From Halovulum marinum (GTDB lineage: Bacteria > Pseudomonadota > Alphaproteobacteria > Rhodobacterales > Rhodobacteraceae), in the NCBI RefSeq assembly GCF_009697225.1, contig NZ_WIND01000009.1:1-64000 (forward strand): DNA of 64,000 nt, in the 5' to 3' direction. Below, piece after piece: positions 35,855-45,700 of this stretch. Within the stretch, counting starts at the first letter, position 1; each line of letters begins with the position of its first letter. Under the pieces are notes generated by a model that saw only the letters and a program-made list of their open reading frames with translations, did no database searches and was not told the DNA's origin. The translations under genes were made by a program, and so were the position numbers.

Positions 35855-37081
35855 CTAGAGCGCGCCGCCGCTGGCGCGGCGATACCAGTCGACGATCAGC
35901 GCGCGCTCGGCGTCCTCCATGTGCGACAGGTTCGCGGGCGGCATGGCGCGGGTGACGCCGGCCTGAAGATAGATCTCGCGGGCGTGGCGGGCGATGTCCT
36001 CGGGGGTGTCCAGCCGCACGCCCTTGGGCGGCCAGAGAATGCCGTCCCAGCCCGGCTCGGCCGCGTGGCACATCGCGCAGCGGCCGGTCACCACGTCGGT
36101 CACCTGCGCGAAGCCGTCGGCGGCGGCGAAGCGCTGCGCGGCGGGGGTCATCGCCTGCGCCTCGGGCTGGCGCAGCGGCTGCGCGGACAGCCACATGATC
36201 ACGATGAAGATCACCGCCGTCGCCGCCCAGGTCCAGGTCGGGTTGCCCCGGCGCGCGTGCAGCGTGTTGAAGTAGTGCCGGATGGTGACGCCCATCAGGA
36301 ACACCAGGCTGGCGATCGCCCAGTTCCACGGGCTGGCGAAGGCCAGCGGATAATGGTTCGACAGCATCAGGAACAGCACCGGCAGCGTCAGGTAGTTGTT
36401 GTGCGTGCTGCGCTGCTTGGCGATCCTGCCGTACTTCGCATCCGGCGTGCGGCCGGCCTTCAGGTCCGCGACCACGATCTTCTGGTTCGGGATGATGATG
36501 AAGAACACGTTCGCCGACATGATCGTGGCGGTGAACGCGCCCAGATGCAGCAGCGCCGCCCGCCCCGAGAACACCTGCGCGTAGCCCCAGGCCATCGCCA
36601 CCAGGATCAGGTAAAGGCCCAGCATCAGCCGGGTGTTGTCGTCGCCGAAGCGGCTCTTGCAGATCAGGTCGTAGGCAAGCCAGCCGAAGCCGATCGAGGC
36701 CAGCGAGATCAGGATCGCGACCCAGATCGGCAGGTCCAGCACCGACGGGTCCACCAGATACAGCTCGGCGCCGACATAATAGACCAGCACCAGCATGGCG
36801 AAACCGGTCAGCCAGGTGGAATAGCTTTCCCATTTGAACCAGACCAGGTGGTCGGGAAGGTTCGACGGGGCGACCAGGTATTTCTGGATGTGGTAGAAGC
36901 CGCCGCCGTGGACCTGCCATTCCTCGCCGTCCGCCCCGCTTGCCAGGTTCCGGTCCCGGTGCAGCCCCAGGTCCAGCGCAATGAAATAGAAGGACGAGCC
37001 GATCCAGGCGATGCCGGTAATGACATGCGCCCAGCGGACCGCGAACTCGATCCAGGCGCCGATGACGGCGGCATCGTACAT
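35855..37081 (-). CDS. puuD: Membrane urate hydroxylase PuuD with C-terminal cytochrome c
   Basis: 408 residues. Eight or so transmembrane helices with PuuD signatures (WAHVITGIAWIGSSFYFIALD, THNNYLTLPVLFLMLSNHYP), then a periplasmic cytochrome c module containing CAMCH (about residue 325) and a distal Met in TRAMPP. It oxidises urate to 5-hydroxyisourate and passes electrons to the respiratory chain, replacing soluble uricase. uraH ends one base before it starts, so the product is handled by the next enzyme in the same mRNA. In the 110-bp gap upstream of the dehydrogenase gene I see no element. Confidence 0.96.
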   Translation of the reverse strand: MYDAAVIGAWIEFAVRWAHVITGIAWIGSSFYFIALDLGLHRDRNLASGADGEEWQVHGGGFYHIQKYLVAPSNLPDHLVWFKWESYSTWLTGFAMLVLVYYVGAELYLVDPSVLDLPIWVAILISLASIGFGWLAYDLICKSRFGDDNTRLMLGLYLILVAMAWGYAQVFSGRAALLHLGAFTATIMSANVFFIIIPNQKIVVADLKAGRTPDAKYGRIAKQRSTHNNYLTLPVLFLMLSNHYPLAFASPWNWAIASLVFLMGVTIRHYFNTLHARRGNPTWTWAATAVIFIVIMWLSAQPLRQPEAQAMTPAAQRFAAADGFAQVTDVVTGRCAMCHAAEPGWDGILWPPKGVRLDTPEDIARHAREIYLQAGVTRAMPPANLSHMEDAERALIVDWYRRASGGAL

Positions 37082-37082
37082 C

Positions 37083-37451
37083 TCAGCTGCCCCGGTAGGT
37101 GGAATAGCCGTAGGGCGAGACCAGCAGCGGCACGTGGTAGTGCGCGGCCGCGTCGGCGATGCCGAAGCGGATCGGCACCACCTCCAGGAACGCCGGCTCG
37201 GGCAGGTCGCTGCCCATGCGCAGGTGATAGTCGCCGACGTGGAACTCCAGCTGGTAAGTGCCGGTGGCGAAGGTCTCGACCGGCAGGATCGGCGCGTCGG
37301 TGCGCCCGTCGCTGTTGGTGACGCGTGTGGTCAGGTGCACGCGCCCGCCGTCGTCGACGCGGTAGAGCGAGATCTCGAGACCCTCGGCCGGCAGGCCCAG
37401 CGCCGTATCCAGCACATGCGTGGTCAGGAAACCGCCCGCAGGTTCGTTCAT
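37083..37451 (-). CDS. uraH: 5-hydroxyisourate hydrolase (transthyretin-like)
   Basis: 122 residues from [19 protein letters not shown], set by CCGGAGA. Family motifs: [13 protein letters not shown] (His), TNSDGRTD (Arg) and the C-terminal YRGS tetrapeptide of HIU hydrolases (not transthyretin). It converts 5-hydroxyisourate to OHCU. No signal peptide, so cytoplasmic. First gene of uraH-puuD, divergent from puuE. Confidence 0.96.
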
Positions 37452-37465
37452 CGCGTGTCTCCGGA

Positions 37466-37520
37466 TTGTCCTTGCCCGCGCGGGGCGTCTATTCTGCGCC
37501 GGATGTTGCGTCGCGACGCA
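37466..37520. promoter_or_regulatory. Divergent purine-catabolism promoter region with 14-bp perfect palindrome
   Basis: TTGTCC (37466-37471) and TATTCT (37490-37495), 18 bp apart, would drive puuE. Just past the predicted start lies TGCGTCGCGACGCA (37507-37520), a perfect 14-bp palindrome, 24 bp before the puuE ATG. On the other strand the same palindrome falls in the spacer of a weak promoter for uraH (TTGTGT, then CAACAT). One repressor at this site could control both operons. No regulator gene adjoins. Confidence 0.5.
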
Positions 37521-37544
37521 GCCCGACACAAGACCCGAGGTCCC

Positions 37545-38963
37545 ATGCCCGACCGCTATCCCCGCGACTTGCACGGCCACGGCCCCGCGCCCCGGGACCC
37601 GAAGTGGCCAGGCGGCGCCAAGGTCGTCGTCCAGATCGTCCTGAACTACGAGGAGGGCGGCGAGAACTGCCTGCTGCACGGCGATCCGGCCTCCGAGGCG
37701 TTCCTGTCCGAGGTCGTCGGCGCCCAGCCCTGGCCCGGCCAGCGGCACTGGAACGTCGAGACGATGTACGAGTACGGCGCCCGCGTCGGCTTCTGGCGGC
37801 TGCACCGGCTGCTGACGCAGATGAACGTGCCGGTCACCGTCTACGGCGTCGCCGCGGCGCTGGCGCGCAGCCCGGCGCAGGTCGCCGCGATGCAGGACGC
37901 CGGCTGGGAGATCGCCAGCCACGGCCTGCGCTGGATCGAGTACAAGGATTTCTCCGAGGCCGAGGAACGCGCCCACATGGACGAGGCGATCCGGCTGCAC
38001 ACCGAGGTGACGGGCGAGCGCCCGCGCGGCTGGTACACCGGCCGCTGCACCGAGCGCACGCTGGACCTGGTGACGCAGGAGGGCGGTTTCGCCTACGCCG
38101 CCGACAGCTACGCCGACGAGCTGCCGTACTGGCACCGGCACGGCGGGCGGGATCAGCTGGTGATCCCCTATTCGCTGGACGCCAATGACTCGCGCTTCGT
38201 CGGCGCACCCGGGTTCAGCCACGGGCAGGACTTCTTCACCTACCTGCACGACGCCTTCGACGTGATGTACGAGGAAGGCCACCACGGCCCGGCGCGGATC
38301 CTGTCGGTCGGCCTGCACTGCCGGCTGGCGGGCCGTCCGGGGCGGCTGGCGGGGCTGAAGAAGTTCCTCGAGCACGCGAAGCGGCACGAGGGCGTCTGGA
38401 TCGCGCGCCGCGTCGACATCGCCGGGCACTGGGCGAAGGCGCATCCGCCGCAGGCATGGGACCGGCCCTCGCAGATGGACCGCGAGACGTTCGTGGCGAA
38501 GTGGGGCGGGATCTTCGAGAACTCTGCCTGGGTGGCGGAACGGGCCTACGAGCTGGAACTGGGTCCGGCGCACGACACCGCCGTCGGGATGCATTCGGCG
38601 CTGGCGCGGGCGTTCCGCGCGGCCTCGGACGCCGAACGTCTGGGCGTGCTGCGGGCGCACCCGGATCTGGCGGGCAAGCTGGCCGCCGCACGGGCGCTGA
38701 CCCCGGAAAGCACCGCCGAGCAGGCCGGCGCCGGGCTCGACATGCTGACCGACGCCGAGCGCGCCCGGTTTGCCGAACTGAACACGCGCTACACCGACCG
38801 GTTCGGCTTTCCGTTCATCATCGCGGTCAAGGACCACGACAAGGCGGGGATCCTGGCCGCCTTCGAGGCCCGGCTGGAGAACGACCCCGAGGACGAGCGC
38901 GCCGCCGCCTGCCGGCAGGTCGAGCGCATCGCCGCGCTGCGGCTGAAGGACCGGCTGCCATGA
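37545..38963 (+). CDS. puuE: Bifunctional allantoinase (PuuE) / OHCU decarboxylase (UraD) fusion
   Basis: 472 residues from [13 protein letters not shown] (GAGG 4 bases upstream; an ATG at 37503 is also open). Residues about 1-300 are a metal-independent PuuE allantoinase of the polysaccharide-deacetylase fold ([41 protein letters not shown]). Residues about 310-472 are OHCU decarboxylase ([41 protein letters not shown]). Thus OHCU to (S)-allantoin and allantoin to allantoate are fused. The order of domains does not follow pathway order. First gene of a plus-strand operon with allE and allA. Confidence 0.94.
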
Positions 38964-40493: not shown

Positions 40494-42257
40494 GTGACTA
40501 TCCCGGACGATCGCCTTGACCCCGCACCCGCCCCGATCGGCAAACTGGTTGACCTGGCTGAAGCTGCCTCGAACGAACGGAACTGGTCCGAGGCGATTGC
40601 CCGCTGGACCGCCTGTTTCGCACACCCCGAGGCGCACCCCGCACCGCGCTGGCACGCGGCCCTGGGCAACGCACTGCTGGCGTCCGGACAGGCGAATCGC
40701 GCCGTCGACGTTTTCGAGCCCGCACGCGTCCGGCATCCGAAGGCGCCGGAAATCGCGCTCGGGCTGGCGCGCGCCTACACCCGCGCCGAGCGGTGGGACG
40801 ACGCGGCCGGCGTGTGGGCGGCCTGCATCGCCGAGTTTCCCGACCGGGTCCGATCCGACTGGCGCGTGAATTATGCCGAATGCCTGGGCCATCTCGAGCG
40901 CTGGGCCGAGGCCGAGGAGCAGACAACGCTGGTAGTCGATACCGAGCCGGTGCGGGTGGCGATCATGGCGCTGCACGCGCGCTGCGCGCAGCAGCGCGGC
41001 GACTGGCCGGCCGCGCTGGAACGGTGGGACCGCTGCATCGCCGCGGCGGACGACGCGCGGCCGATCTGGCTGATGGACCGTGCCACCGCCCTGCAGGCGG
41101 TCGGGCGCAGCGCCGAGGCGACCGCGGCCTTCAACCTGATCCGCGACTCCGGCCGCGCCACCTGCAACGAAACGCGCCGCGCCTTCGTGCAGGCGATGAC
41201 GCGGGCCCGGCGGGGCGACGAGCTGGCGCAGGCGTTCACCGAAGGTTTCCTGAAGGACGCGCCGCCGGACCCGAGCGATCTGACCGCGGCGCGCGGGCTG
41301 ATCACCTGCAACCGCGTCGACGACGCGCGGCGGCTGTTCGCGCGCCTGCTGCCCGAGCTGCACAACGCTCAGGGGCTGGTCCGCAGCCTGAACATCGTCG
41401 CGCTGGCCCATGACGCCGACGAACGCCCGGCGCTCTACCGCCGGATCGCCGATCGCGCCCACGAGATGCTGGCCGCGGAGCCGACGGACGTGGCGCCGCT
41501 GCACCGCGCGCGGGTCGGCGCCGCCTTCGGCACCCGGGACATCGGCCTGATCCGAACGGCGGTCGCCGACGCCGAGGCGGACGATCCCGCCGCCGCCGCG
41601 CCTGCGCGCGAGATCCTGCGGCGCATCGAAACCCCGGACGATCCGGCGCACCGGCGCGGCAAGGTGTTCTGCATCGGCCTGTCCAAGACCGGCACCACCT
41701 CGCTGTCGCGGGCCCTCGGGATGCTTGGCTATGCCTCGGCGCACTGGGCGAACCCCTACACCTGGGAATTGCTGGGCGAGCGGGATCTGCTGCTGTTCGA
41801 TGCGCTGGCCGACACCCCGATCACCTGGCAGTTCCGGCAGCTGGAGGAATCGTTTCCCGACGCGCGGTTCATCTTCACCAGCCGGCCGCTGGAGGACTGG
41901 CGCAGGTCCTGGAGGAAACACATGATCCGCGACCTGGGCGTGGCGGATTTCGACGGCTTCAAGGCAATGATCGAAAGCCCCGATCGCGTTCGCTATGGCG
42001 AGCGGTACCGCCGCATTCACCGGGATCTCTATGGCCGATACGACGACCCCGACAGCGCGTTCCTGGGCCTGGGCGAGGAGATCCGCGCGCATTTCTCCGG
42101 CGCCAGGGCGGACAAGCTGCTGGAATTCGACGTGTTCGCCGGAGACGGGTTCAACAAGCTTTGCGGATTTCTGCGGCGGCCGATCCCGAAAGACCCCTTC
42201 CCGTGGAGCAATGCCGCCCACGAGAAGCCGCGGGTGGTCTACGCCACCGCCTCCTGA
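40494..42257 (+). CDS. TPR-like repeat protein with C-terminal sulfotransferase domain
   Basis: 587 residues from a GTG (GAGGG 9 bases upstream). Residues about 15-380 are helical repeats of TPR type (RNWSEAIARWTACF, PAPRWHAALGNALLASG, ERWAEAEEQ, GDWPAALERWDRCI). The C-terminal about 200 residues form a sulfotransferase: 5'-PAPS loop VFCIGLSKTGTTSLSRALG, then FIFTSRPLEDWRRSW (3'-phosphate-binding type). It probably sulfates a glycan, lipid or protein in the cytoplasm. It starts a cluster of three, followed by a related TPR-glycosyltransferase and another sulfotransferase. Confidence 0.85.
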   Translation: MTIPDDRLDPAPAPIGKLVDLAEAASNERNWSEAIARWTACFAHPEAHPAPRWHAALGNALLASGQANRAVDVFEPARVRHPKAPEIALGLARAYTRAERWDDAAGVWAACIAEFPDRVRSDWRVNYAECLGHLERWAEAEEQTTLVVDTEPVRVAIMALHARCAQQRGDWPAALERWDRCIAAADDARPIWLMDRATALQAVGRSAEATAAFNLIRDSGRATCNETRRAFVQAMTRARRGDELAQAFTEGFLKDAPPDPSDLTAARGLITCNRVDDARRLFARLLPELHNAQGLVRSLNIVALAHDADERPALYRRIADRAHEMLAAEPTDVAPLHRARVGAAFGTRDIGLIRTAVADAEADDPAAAAPAREILRRIETPDDPAHRRGKVFCIGLSKTGTTSLSRALGMLGYASAHWANPYTWELLGERDLLLFDALADTPITWQFRQLEESFPDARFIFTSRPLEDWRRSWRKHMIRDLGVADFDGFKAMIESPDRVRYGERYRRIHRDLYGRYDDPDSAFLGLGEEIRAHFSGARADKLLEFDVFAGDGFNKLCGFLRRPIPKDPFPWSNAAHEKPRVVYATAS

Positions 42258-42314
42258 CAAGATGTCTCGCGCATTCCCGGCCTGGGACGGACCCGGCCAG
42301 CCAAGGTGGACGAC

Positions 42315-44573
42315 ATGACGATCGACTTCGGGGCACACGGCGATGACGCCGCGCCGGACATGGGTTCCGCCGCGGACGGCGCGGCGAGCATCGAGGACGT
42401 GGTGGCGCGGGCCGAACAGGCGCGCGCGGACCGGAACTGGACCGCCGCCGCCGAGCTGTGGTCCGAGGCGTTGCGCCGGTTCCCGGGAAAGGCGCGGCCG
42501 GCCTGGTTCCTGAGCCTGGGCGACACGCTGCTGGACCTGCGCCGCACCGGCCGGGCCGAGCAGGTGTTCCAGGCGGGCGCCGAGCGCTTTCCCGCCGCCG
42601 TCGGGCTGCAGGCCGCGCTGGCCCGCACCGCCGTCGCCCGCCGCGACTGGCCTGCGGCCGCGCTGCGCTGGCAGGCGTGCGTCGACCGCTTTCCCGACGA
42701 GGTGCGGCCGCACTGGCTGATCTCGCTGGGCAGCGCGCTGATCAGCATGGGCAGCCTCGACCGGGCCGAGCGGGTGCTGGCCGATGCGGTCGCGCGGTTT
42801 CCCGACAACCGCCGGGCCTTCGTCTCGCAGGCCAGGGTCGCAGCGGAACGCCAGGACTGGGCGGAATGCGCCGCGCGCTGGCGCACGGTCATCGCCACCT
42901 TCCCCGATCAGGACCTGCCCGAGAACGGCGCCGGCCTCGCCCGTGCCCTGCGCATGGCCGGCCGCTTCGACGAGGCCGACGCCGTGCTGCGCAGCTATAT
43001 TGCCGCACACCCGAACGAGGCCGAGCTGTACATGGCGCTGGCGACCAACGCGCACATTGCGCGCGATACCGACGCGCGCGCGCGTCGCTGGGCGGATGCG
43101 CGGCAGCGGTTCCCCGCCGCGGTCGAGACCAGCCCGCTGTTCAAGGCGTTCCAGCTGGACGCGCAGACCGGCGCGGATGTCTCGGACGACTACCGGTTCG
43201 ACCCCGGCCTGACCGAGGCCGCCGCGCTGGCGCGGGTGAACTCGCTGTCGGCGCACCTGCTCGTGATCGACGCGGTGGCGCTGATCGGCCGCTATCACCA
43301 GCTCTACCCCGACAACCTGCGGATCTGGGCCAAGTACGTCCGCGGCCTGGCCCGGCAGCTGTCCGGTCCGGCCGACCTGGCGCGGCTGCTGGACGAGACC
43401 GCGCGCCTGTGCCGGGCGGCCCCGGAGAGCCGGCAGGCGATGCAGGAACGCGGCCTGGCGCTGATCTGTGCCGACGACCGCGACGCGATGCAGGATCATG
43501 TCGGGCGGATGGAGCGCGACCTGGGGCGCGGCGCAGACACCGACACGATGCGGATCTGGCTCCGCGCGGCGCAGGGCGACGCCGCGGGCGCCGCGCGGCT
43601 GTACGCCGAGCGGAAGCAGCACACCTACGTCCCGGCCAGCGACGCGCCGATCCGCCGGTTCGAGCGGCTGGACGACACGCCCGCGCCGGCGATGCGCGAC
43701 GGCATCGTGCTGTTCGCGCCGATGCGCAACGAACGGGCCTTCCTGCCCTGGTTCCTGAAGCATTATCGCGGCATCGGCGTCGAGCGATTCGTGCTGGTCG
43801 ACAACGGCTCGACCGACGGATCGCGGGACTACGCCGCGGCGCAGCCCGACGTGCTGCTCTACGGCACCGACGACAATTTCTTCCAGGCCGCCTCGGGGAT
43901 GCGGTGGATCAACCACATGATCGCGCTGCACGGCCAGGACAACTGGTGCCTGTTCGTGGACATGGACGAACAGCTGGTGTTTCCCGGCATGGACGGCACC
44001 GGGCTGCGCGGCCTGGTGACGGCGATGGCGGACCGCGGCGACGAGGTGATGCCGGCGTTCATGCTGGACACCTTTCCGCGGCGGATCGGCGATCTTTACG
44101 ACTGGCAGCCCGAACAGGACCCGCTGGAAGCGGTGCCGCTGTTCGACCGGACGCACTTCGCCTATGGCGGGCCGGATGCGCCGCACCGGCAGGTGCGCGG
44201 CGGCGTCCGCAACCGTCTGTTCGGCATGGCCGAGGTCCTGGAGAAGGCGCCGATCCTGCGCGGCCGGCCCGGGCTGCACTACACCGGCAACCACACCACC
44301 GCGCCGGCGCGGGTCAGCGATGCCGGCTGCGTGCTGCTGCACCACAAGATGCTGCAGGAGGGCATCGGCCTGAAATCGGAAATCCACATCACCGCCAACG
44401 AACGCGTCCGCGACCGCAACCCCGCCTGCCAGCGCCGCTACCTGCGCTACCGCGACGTGCTGCAGGCGCTGGGCCGAGATGCGGGGCTGGAATCGGAGCA
44501 AAGCGAGTGCTACCGCTCGGCCGAACAGCTGGTGCAACTGGGACTGATGAAGGAGATCGGCGATGCCGTGTGA
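42315..44573 (+). CDS. TPR-like repeat protein with C-terminal glycosyltransferase domain
   Basis: 752 residues from the ATG at 42315 (AAGG 8 bases upstream; GTG three codons earlier is possible). Residues about 25-270 are the same kind of repeats as in the previous gene (RNWTAAAELWSEALRRFP, RPAWFLSLGDTLLDLRR, RRDWPAAALRWQACVDRFP). The C-terminal half is a GT2/GT92-like glycosyltransferase: FAPMRNERAFLPWFLKHYRG, VLVDNGSTDGSRDYA, CLFVDMDEQLVFPG with the DxD-like motif, and a C-terminal LLHHKM. Sugar and acceptor unknown. Confidence 0.85.
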   Translation: MTIDFGAHGDDAAPDMGSAADGAASIEDVVARAEQARADRNWTAAAELWSEALRRFPGKARPAWFLSLGDTLLDLRRTGRAEQVFQAGAERFPAAVGLQAALARTAVARRDWPAAALRWQACVDRFPDEVRPHWLISLGSALISMGSLDRAERVLADAVARFPDNRRAFVSQARVAAERQDWAECAARWRTVIATFPDQDLPENGAGLARALRMAGRFDEADAVLRSYIAAHPNEAELYMALATNAHIARDTDARARRWADARQRFPAAVETSPLFKAFQLDAQTGADVSDDYRFDPGLTEAAALARVNSLSAHLLVIDAVALIGRYHQLYPDNLRIWAKYVRGLARQLSGPADLARLLDETARLCRAAPESRQAMQERGLALICADDRDAMQDHVGRMERDLGRGADTDTMRIWLRAAQGDAAGAARLYAERKQHTYVPASDAPIRRFERLDDTPAPAMRDGIVLFAPMRNERAFLPWFLKHYRGIGVERFVLVDNGSTDGSRDYAAAQPDVLLYGTDDNFFQAASGMRWINHMIALHGQDNWCLFVDMDEQLVFPGMDGTGLRGLVTAMADRGDEVMPAFMLDTFPRRIGDLYDWQPEQDPLEAVPLFDRTHFAYGGPDAPHRQVRGGVRNRLFGMAEVLEKAPILRGRPGLHYTGNHTTAPARVSDAGCVLLHHKMLQEGIGLKSEIHITANERVRDRNPACQRRYLRYRDVLQALGRDAGLESEQSECYRSAEQLVQLGLMKEIGDAV

Positions 44574-44596
44574 CGCCGCGGGGCGCGAGACCTGAC

Positions 44597-45700
44597 ATGC
44601 GCATCCTGGTTCATTTCGGACAGGCCAAGACCGGCACCACCGCCCTGCAGCACACGTTCGGCAAGCACCGGCGCGACCTCGCCGGGCGCGGCATCCTCTA
44701 CCCGCGGCTGCCGAAGGTTCCGCACAACCACGGCCTGCTGGCGATCGGCTTCAAGGCGGCCGAAACCCTGCATCCCAACTTCCTGCGGATGTTCGGCGGC
44801 GATGCCGAGGCGATGCGCGCGGGCGGCGAACAGGCCTGGGACGCGGTCAGGCAGCAGGTCGAACAGGAACGGCCGGAGCTGCTGGTGCTCAGCGCCGAGG
44901 AGTATTTCTCGCAGCTGAACGCCGAGGCGGCCGAACGGCTGCGGTCGCGGCTGGAGGGTCTGGGCGCGGCGCGCGCGGACATCGCGACCTGCGTCTACCT
45001 GCGCGACCCGGCCTCGCAACTGCTGTCCCTGATCGCGCAGAACGCGGTTTCGATGATGCCGCTGAGCAACCAGTTGCGGCTGCACGCGAAGGGCCGGCTG
45101 GCGGCGCTTGAGGCGACGTTTCCCGCAGCGCCGACGGTCTGTGCCTACGACCGCGCGCGTCTGGCCGGCGGCGACATCGTGCAGGATTTCGTCACCCGCT
45201 TCCTGCCCGAGATCGCCGATCTGACCCTGACCGCGCCGCAGCGCAAGAACGTGTCGCTGTCCGGCGAGGGCACCGCGATCGTTCTGTGGTACCGCGACCG
45301 GCTGCTGACCGAGCGCCGGCCGGACACGATCCACCAGGTGCGCCGGATCCGTCAGTTCCTCGCGCGGATCGAGGTCGCCGACGGCATTTCGCGCAAGGCG
45401 CGGCTGCGGCCCGAGGTCCACGACGCCATCATCCGCGGCTCGGAGGAGCTGATCTGGCTGCGCGACACCCACGGGCTGACCTACACCGGCATCGACTACG
45501 CGACGATCGACGGCAAGGCGCCGAAGCTGCCGGCGCCGACCCCGGCGACGATCGACCGGTTCCTGGATCTGGACCTGGACCTGCGCGACCATCTGCTGGC
45601 GCGGCTGGTGCAGGATCTGCTGCCGGAGATGCCGGCGGCCGGCATCGGTCCGAGAGCGGATCTGGACGACGACAGCGACGACGCCGTCGACGCGGCGTGA
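44597..45700 (+). CDS. Sulfotransferase-fold protein
   Basis: 367 residues from MRILVHFGQAKTGTTALQHT, where GQAKTGTTALQ is the PAPS-binding P-loop. It continues with the acidic LVLSAEEYFSQL, and CVYLRDPASQLLSLIAQNA matches the 3'-phosphate region. No TPR part. A highly acidic C-terminus (DLDDDSDDAVDAA) ends the protein. Third gene of the cluster, 23 bp after the glycosyltransferase. It converges on modC, whose stop is 6 bp away. Confidence 0.8.
   Translation: MRILVHFGQAKTGTTALQHTFGKHRRDLAGRGILYPRLPKVPHNHGLLAIGFKAAETLHPNFLRMFGGDAEAMRAGGEQAWDAVRQQVEQERPELLVLSAEEYFSQLNAEAAERLRSRLEGLGAARADIATCVYLRDPASQLLSLIAQNAVSMMPLSNQLRLHAKGRLAALEATFPAAPTVCAYDRARLAGGDIVQDFVTRFLPEIADLTLTAPQRKNVSLSGEGTAIVLWYRDRLLTERRPDTIHQVRRIRQFLARIEVADGISRKARLRPEVHDAIIRGSEELIWLRDTHGLTYTGIDYATIDGKAPKLPAPTPATIDRFLDLDLDLRDHLLARLVQDLLPEMPAAGIGPRADLDDDSDDAVDAA

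Follow-up and report, generated by a model that had tools for sequence, protein, structure and literature searches.

What do a sulfotransferase and a glycosyltransferase build together when they are encoded side by side and begin with the same kind of TPR arm? This question is raised by three genes, here called A, B and C, in a stretch of 64,000 nucleotides from Halovulum marinum (contig NZ_WIND01000009.1, positions 1 to 64,000; hereafter the window). The source genome has 4.63 Mb and a high GC content. The initial annotation had placed three consecutive genes at 40494-45700, and the ORFs are present on the forward strand with exactly these limits (Table 1). Their third-codon GC, 0.88-0.92, is high like that of the real genes of the genome. 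The only features that point to an operon are the intergenic gaps, of about 50 bases between A and B and 23 bases between B and C. A search of the forward strand gave no sigma-70-type promoter, and no terminator signal rose above chance.

Table 1. Position of the three genes and of their domains in the window
Feature	Position	Strand	Description
Gene A	40494..42257	+	TPR domain and PF17784 sulfotransferase, 587 aa
A, six collinear TPRs common to B	40536..41168	+	residues 15-225
A, Sulfotransfer_4 catalytic domain	41661..42221	+	residues 390-576, E 1e-27
Gene B	42306..44573	+	TPR domain and PF13704 GT2-type glycosyltransferase; 755 aa (GTG 42306) or 752 aa (ATG 42315)
B, six TPRs	42390..43022	+	residues 29-239
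B, Glyco_tranf_2_4 domain core	43725..44009	+	residues 474-568, E 7e-25
Gene C	44597..45700	+	367 aa, predicted sulfotransferase without Pfam family

The cluster is immediately flanked by ureide genes on its 5' side and by molybdate-type ABC genes on its 3' side. A ureidoglycolate lyase gene ends 239 bases upstream of A, and a convergent gene for an ABC-transporter ATPase with a TOBE domain (molybdate type) lies downstream of C. Further upstream, positions 37011-38963 hold a single ORF that joins a polysaccharide-deacetylase (PuuE allantoinase-like) domain to an OHCU decarboxylase, adjoined on the opposite strand (35855-37081) by a gene for a PuuD-type urate oxidase that bears a cytochrome domain at its C-terminus. 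Among the window genes scanned, neither nucleotide-sugar, export or PAPS-synthesis genes beside the trio nor a gene for flagellin or another protein target was recognised; export and nucleotide-sugar functions may be encoded at a distant locus. A DNA-level search of plasmids gave no useful match.

The catalytic kinds of A and B can be read from their Pfam matches. A scores 97.9 bits against PF17784 (Sulfotransfer_4; cut-off 22.8), covering profile positions 1-213 of 215, and carries the PAPS-site motif SKTGTT at residues 397-402 (KTGTT at 398-402) near the start of the catalytic domain, which also bears a distant similarity to the oxamniquine sulfotransferase of Schistosoma. B reaches 87.9 bits against PF13704 (Glyco_tranf_2_4; cut-off 27.5), covering positions 1-95 of 98, with the GT2-typical motifs VDNGS at residue 498 and DMDE (DxD-type) at 552. 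As to its alternative starts, AAGGTGG sits a few bases 5' of the ATG. The N-termini of both proteins match the TPR_19 and TPR_14 profiles above cut-off. A, B and C all lack a long hydrophobic segment, and they are therefore probably soluble cytoplasmic proteins.

Gene C has no match in Pfam, even at E 10, nor in NCBIfam, which bars it from those families but not from the sulfotransferase fold. It contains the PAPS-site motif GQAKTGTT (KTGTT at residues 11-15), in which K11 and G13 are invariant among C relatives, and a second motif of the VYLRDPxxxxxS type. Its fold was modelled with AF2 from seven aligned sequences (pLDDT 80). A Foldseek search with this model was weak, giving no hit with E < 1e-3 and ranking PFKFB and TPST1 at the top. 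With VIA-align, the best match was the Alicyclobacillus sulfotransferase 3rnl (Z 14.5 over 208 residues), followed by the heparan sulfate sulfotransferases NDST1 (Z 13) and 3-OST (heparan 3-O-sulfotransferases, Z about 12); the top rows were all sulfotransferases, whereas the best unrelated P-loop kinases, adenylate kinases, reached only Z 8.7. It is thus VIA-align, and not Foldseek alone, that sets the sulfotransferases apart from other P-loop folds, and by its predicted fold C is a PAPS-sulfotransferase. C shares this fold with 3rnl, NDST1 and 3-OST (Z 12-14.5) at 13-18% identity, and the fold does not allow their substrates to be transferred to it. The succession of a TPR-sulfotransferase, a TPR-glycosyltransferase and a plain sulfotransferase, as initially proposed, is borne out by PF17784 in A, PF13704 in B, and the fold and PAPS motif in C.

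The genes related to C are located in nucleotide-sugar and glycosyltransferase loci, together with nucleotide-sugar dehydrogenase, glycosyltransferases and GSCFA proteins. At another locus (L109:700-7248) a C-type sulfotransferase gene is flanked by an alginate-lyase-family gene and an ABC exporter, and a PF13704 gene stands ahead of them.

The N-terminal arms of A and B consist of TPR units of 34-36 residues; helix pairs are seen in the AF2 model (pLDDT about 90 or more across residues 30-200 of B). The distinctive repeat that had been noticed in both proteins is real: odd repeats follow the pattern xxNWxxAxxxW and even repeats RPxWxxxLGxAL, and two TPRs together make up a super-unit of about 70 residues. 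In A it reads RNWSEAIARW..PRWHAALGNAL, and copies in B read RNWTAAAELW..RPAWFLSLGDTL and RDWPAAALRW..RPHWLISLGSAL. When the repeats of A and B were compared one by one, the top-scoring pairs joined odd repeats to odd ones and even repeats to even ones.

Far from belonging to unrelated repeat families, the two arms align as one collinear six-repeat block with 31% identity and two one-residue gaps. The local score of 222 compares with 41 +/- 6.6 for shuffled sequences, and none of the other TPR proteins fetched in a search of 385 genomes exceeded 151; blastp gives 31.7% identity over 202 aa (E 2e-18). When a combined profile of both arms was run against the same genome, with all 137 candidates scored, A and B obtained 370 bits or more and the next protein 22 bits or less. 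These scores, the alignment and the genome-wide uniqueness indicate a common origin of the arms, probably, to judge from the sequences, by duplication and domain joining. Demonstrable similarity is confined to the repeats and does not reach into the linkers behind them.

Linkage of the two kinds of gene is not confined to this genome. Full-length relatives of A and full-length relatives of B are present in the same 3 of 385 genomes of the class (the source genome, G515 and G411), a count based on profiles that include G515 proteins; as two or three candidates were scored per genome, the absences in this survey are soft. G515 and G411 belong to one genus of another alphaproteobacterial family, and the linkage therefore occurs in two independent lineages only. 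Closer to home, the architecture of A was found in 0 of 295 genomes of the family, that of B was not recognised among 149 of them, and the trio is absent from the congeneric genomes searched.

In G515 the gene order is TPR-PF13704 (700 aa), PF03567 Sulfotransfer_2 (163 aa), TPR-like-PF17784 (457 aa) and TPR-PF13469 Sulfotransfer_3 (480 aa). Beyond these four, the other strand encodes a Pfam-less protein of 524 aa, a GT2, a protein of 802 aa that begins like C, and a GT4. G411 has the first three genes in the same order, after which the contig ends. The G515 relative of B is 31% identical over 678 columns, most of its length, and the catalytic parts share 36-41% identity. The best TPR match to A outside its own genome is the TPR-Sulfotransfer_3 gene of the G515 cluster. 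The proposal that one scaffold was combined with several catalytic domains is upheld, and a third such domain can be added to it. In G515 and G411 the A-type protein has a shorter N-terminus that is only weakly TPR-like, so that a shared arm is a weaker claim for it than for A and B of the window or the third TPR gene of G515, where the claim is strong. Linkage of C to orthologues of A and B is known from this genome only.

In G495, of another family, a TPR-PF13704 gene lies just ahead of a 220-aa gene that by eye resembles an FkbM-type methyltransferase. At L160:7180-10512, PF03567, PF17784 and PF13469 sulfotransferases are encoded by consecutive genes after a TPR-glycosyltransferase.

The same catalytic domains are also associated with each other without TPRs. 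The N-terminal part of C matches the start of open frames of about 740-1040 aa in about 37 of 149 genomes of the family (a hand count of the listed frames). In the two loci scanned, L114 and L115, these frames are fusions of a C-like sulfotransferase to PF13704. In 8 of about 12 fetched loci, a sulfotransferase gene of 204-238 aa lies 0-3 bases upstream of the fusion. HHalign connects ten of these upstream sulfotransferases (two of them the same loci twice) to the catalytic domain of A (99.1%, E 2e-18), and the one in L115 exceeds the PF17784 cut-off; in L114 and L115 a further PF13704 gene precedes it. The order of this operon, a common one in Rhodobacteraceae (L114:2975-8890, L115:3305-7373, also L016-L020, L023, L024 and L031), is PF13704, PF17784-type sulfotransferase (motif LGLPKSGTTTL) and a Pfam-less sulfotransferase-PF13704 fusion of about 780-800 aa, and in L114 it continues with an FkbM-like methyltransferase and another PF13704. 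Quite apart from the clusters with TPRs, fusion and adjacency thus connect C-type domains with PF17784 and PF13704.

The TPR-less operon is missing from the genome of the window, where the top matches of the fusion protein are C and B. An orthologous relation was rejected: the glycosyltransferase domain of the fusion reaches only E 5e-5 in the genome of the window, against E 1e-43 for stand-alone PF13704 genes. Since that domain is not the closest relative of the one in B, the operon is an analogue of the trio by domain kind, not an orthologue. Consecutive genes of the same three catalytic kinds are found in both, but the operon has no TPR arms, its C-like domain is fused to a glycosyltransferase and its gene order is different.

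Apparent long fusions of PF17784 or of PF13704 (open frames of 420-1123 aa) in genomes of the family turned out, among those examined, to be mostly overlapping long frames around stand-alone genes. Two exceptions were found: in L212:579-4773 a PF13704 gene (611 aa) overlaps a real 789-aa protein that begins with PF17784, followed by some 600 residues without assigned domain, and in L104 a gene of 659 aa begins with the glycosyltransferase domain. In the source genome, the stand-alone PF13704 gene (L112:1153-10127, contig C14) belongs to a surface-polysaccharide locus with cytidylyltransferase, epimerase, branching-enzyme, GT1 and Branch/DUF5927 protein genes. The succession of a PF13704 gene and one of about 485-570 aa seems to be repeated in L105, L106, L214 and L215.

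We give an even chance to the reading that A, B and C are a small operon of soluble cytoplasmic enzymes making a sulfated glycan, with the TPR arms holding A and B on a common partner. The three genes would be co-transcribed. B would glycosylate an acceptor from a nucleotide sugar, and A and C, with PAPS as the donor, would then sulfate that glycan or residues next to it. The homologous arms would dock A and B on one partner, either the acceptor or a shared assembly protein, for which FlmG offers a precedent; the same molecule would in this way be glycosylated and sulfated in sequence. The loci of the genes related to C and the stand-alone PF13704 locus of the source genome favour a polysaccharide as the acceptor, and the TPR arms favour a protein. 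The TPRs could also be ordinary interaction arms with different partners.

FlmG of Caulobacter crescentus is a TPR-glycosyltransferase of flagellins, whose TPR domain alone binds flagellin and is needed for efficient glycosylation, while the catalytic domain does not bind it (PMC7591256). On this precedent, the acceptor of the trio may be a cytoplasmic protein, flagellin-like or a surface protein before its export, that is read by the TPRs as in FlmG; B would glycosylate it, A would sulfate the sugar or an adjacent residue, and C would be a second sulfotransferase. FlmG is an established case of protein glycosylation directed by TPRs (PMC7591256), the three proteins look soluble, and one protein target is the easiest explanation of two enzymes with one kind of arm. 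We nevertheless consider this unlikely, given that no gene for flagellin or another protein target was recognised among the window genes scanned and that the relatives of the catalytic domains are located in polysaccharide loci. FlmG and B are alike in their N-terminal TPRs, C-terminal glycosyltransferase domain and cytoplasmic pathway; however, the catalytic domain of FlmG is described as resembling GT-B (PMC7591256), while that of B is of the GT2-type PF13704. As the catalytic fold differs, the trio was not assigned to the FlmG family. A sulfotransferase partner with the same TPR arm, as the trio has in A, is not described for FlmG in PMC7591256.

Alternatively, the arms might bind each other or one scaffold in an A-B complex, the acceptor being an ordinary lipid-linked polysaccharide or lipopolysaccharide that the TPRs do not read. 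Homologous arms are what would be expected of a homodimer turned heterodimer, and the location of the stand-alone GT2_4 gene of the source genome and of the C relatives in polysaccharide loci agrees with such an acceptor. However, self-association of the arms is a supposition, and the usual ligands of TPR superhelices are other proteins or peptides, so this explanation too seems unlikely. It is likewise unlikely that a TPR adaptor fused to at least three enzymes (the PF13704 glycosyltransferase and the PF17784 and PF13469 sulfotransferases), which would meet on one protein acceptor, constitutes a bacterial 'glycosylate then sulfate' pathway of protein modification, set by the docking domain that these enzymes share.

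It is improbable that the target is a small molecule or a glycolipid, sulfated by A and C and given its sugar by B, with TPRs that have nothing to do with acceptor choice. NodH and Stf0 are bacterial sulfotransferases that act on glycolipids (PMC11625862), and the Schistosoma enzyme resembled by the catalytic domain of A points the same way, but the presence of the same arm on a sulfotransferase and a glycosyltransferase would be left unexplained. Chance neighbours with generic TPRs, which the rarity of the trio and its absence from the congeneric genomes searched might suggest, are largely refuted by an A/B score far above that of other TPR proteins and by the recurrence of the linkage in another family.

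To return to the favoured reading of a sulfated-glycan operon, glycosyltransferases and sulfotransferases are also found together in the synechan locus of Synechocystis (PMC8205485) and, according to the available text of PMC11641403, in the sulfated capsule cluster of Vibrio KMM 8419. In that text, the Vibrio cluster has export and PAPS-synthesis genes, none of which was recognised near the trio among the window genes scanned, and TPR-fused enzymes, a feature of the trio, are not described. A limited search of the open-access literature found no description of TPR-sulfotransferases, nor of a linked TPR arm on a glycosyltransferase and two kinds of sulfotransferase. The single domains are already known; what is new, in that no description was found, is the arrangement of one TPR arm on a linked glycosyltransferase and two sulfotransferase kinds. 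The initial interpretation of the locus, an assembly building a sulfated glycan, glycolipid or glycoprotein, is supported to the extent that sequence allows.

Little work has been done on glycan sulfation in bacteria, and sequence seldom suffices to predict its substrates. C stands for a group of sulfotransferases that Pfam misses, with related domains that are common in Rhodobacteraceae, also fused to glycosyltransferases. Should the acceptor be set by the shared TPR arm, the trio would make specificity accessible from sequence and would help to address how glycosylation and sulfation are coordinated.
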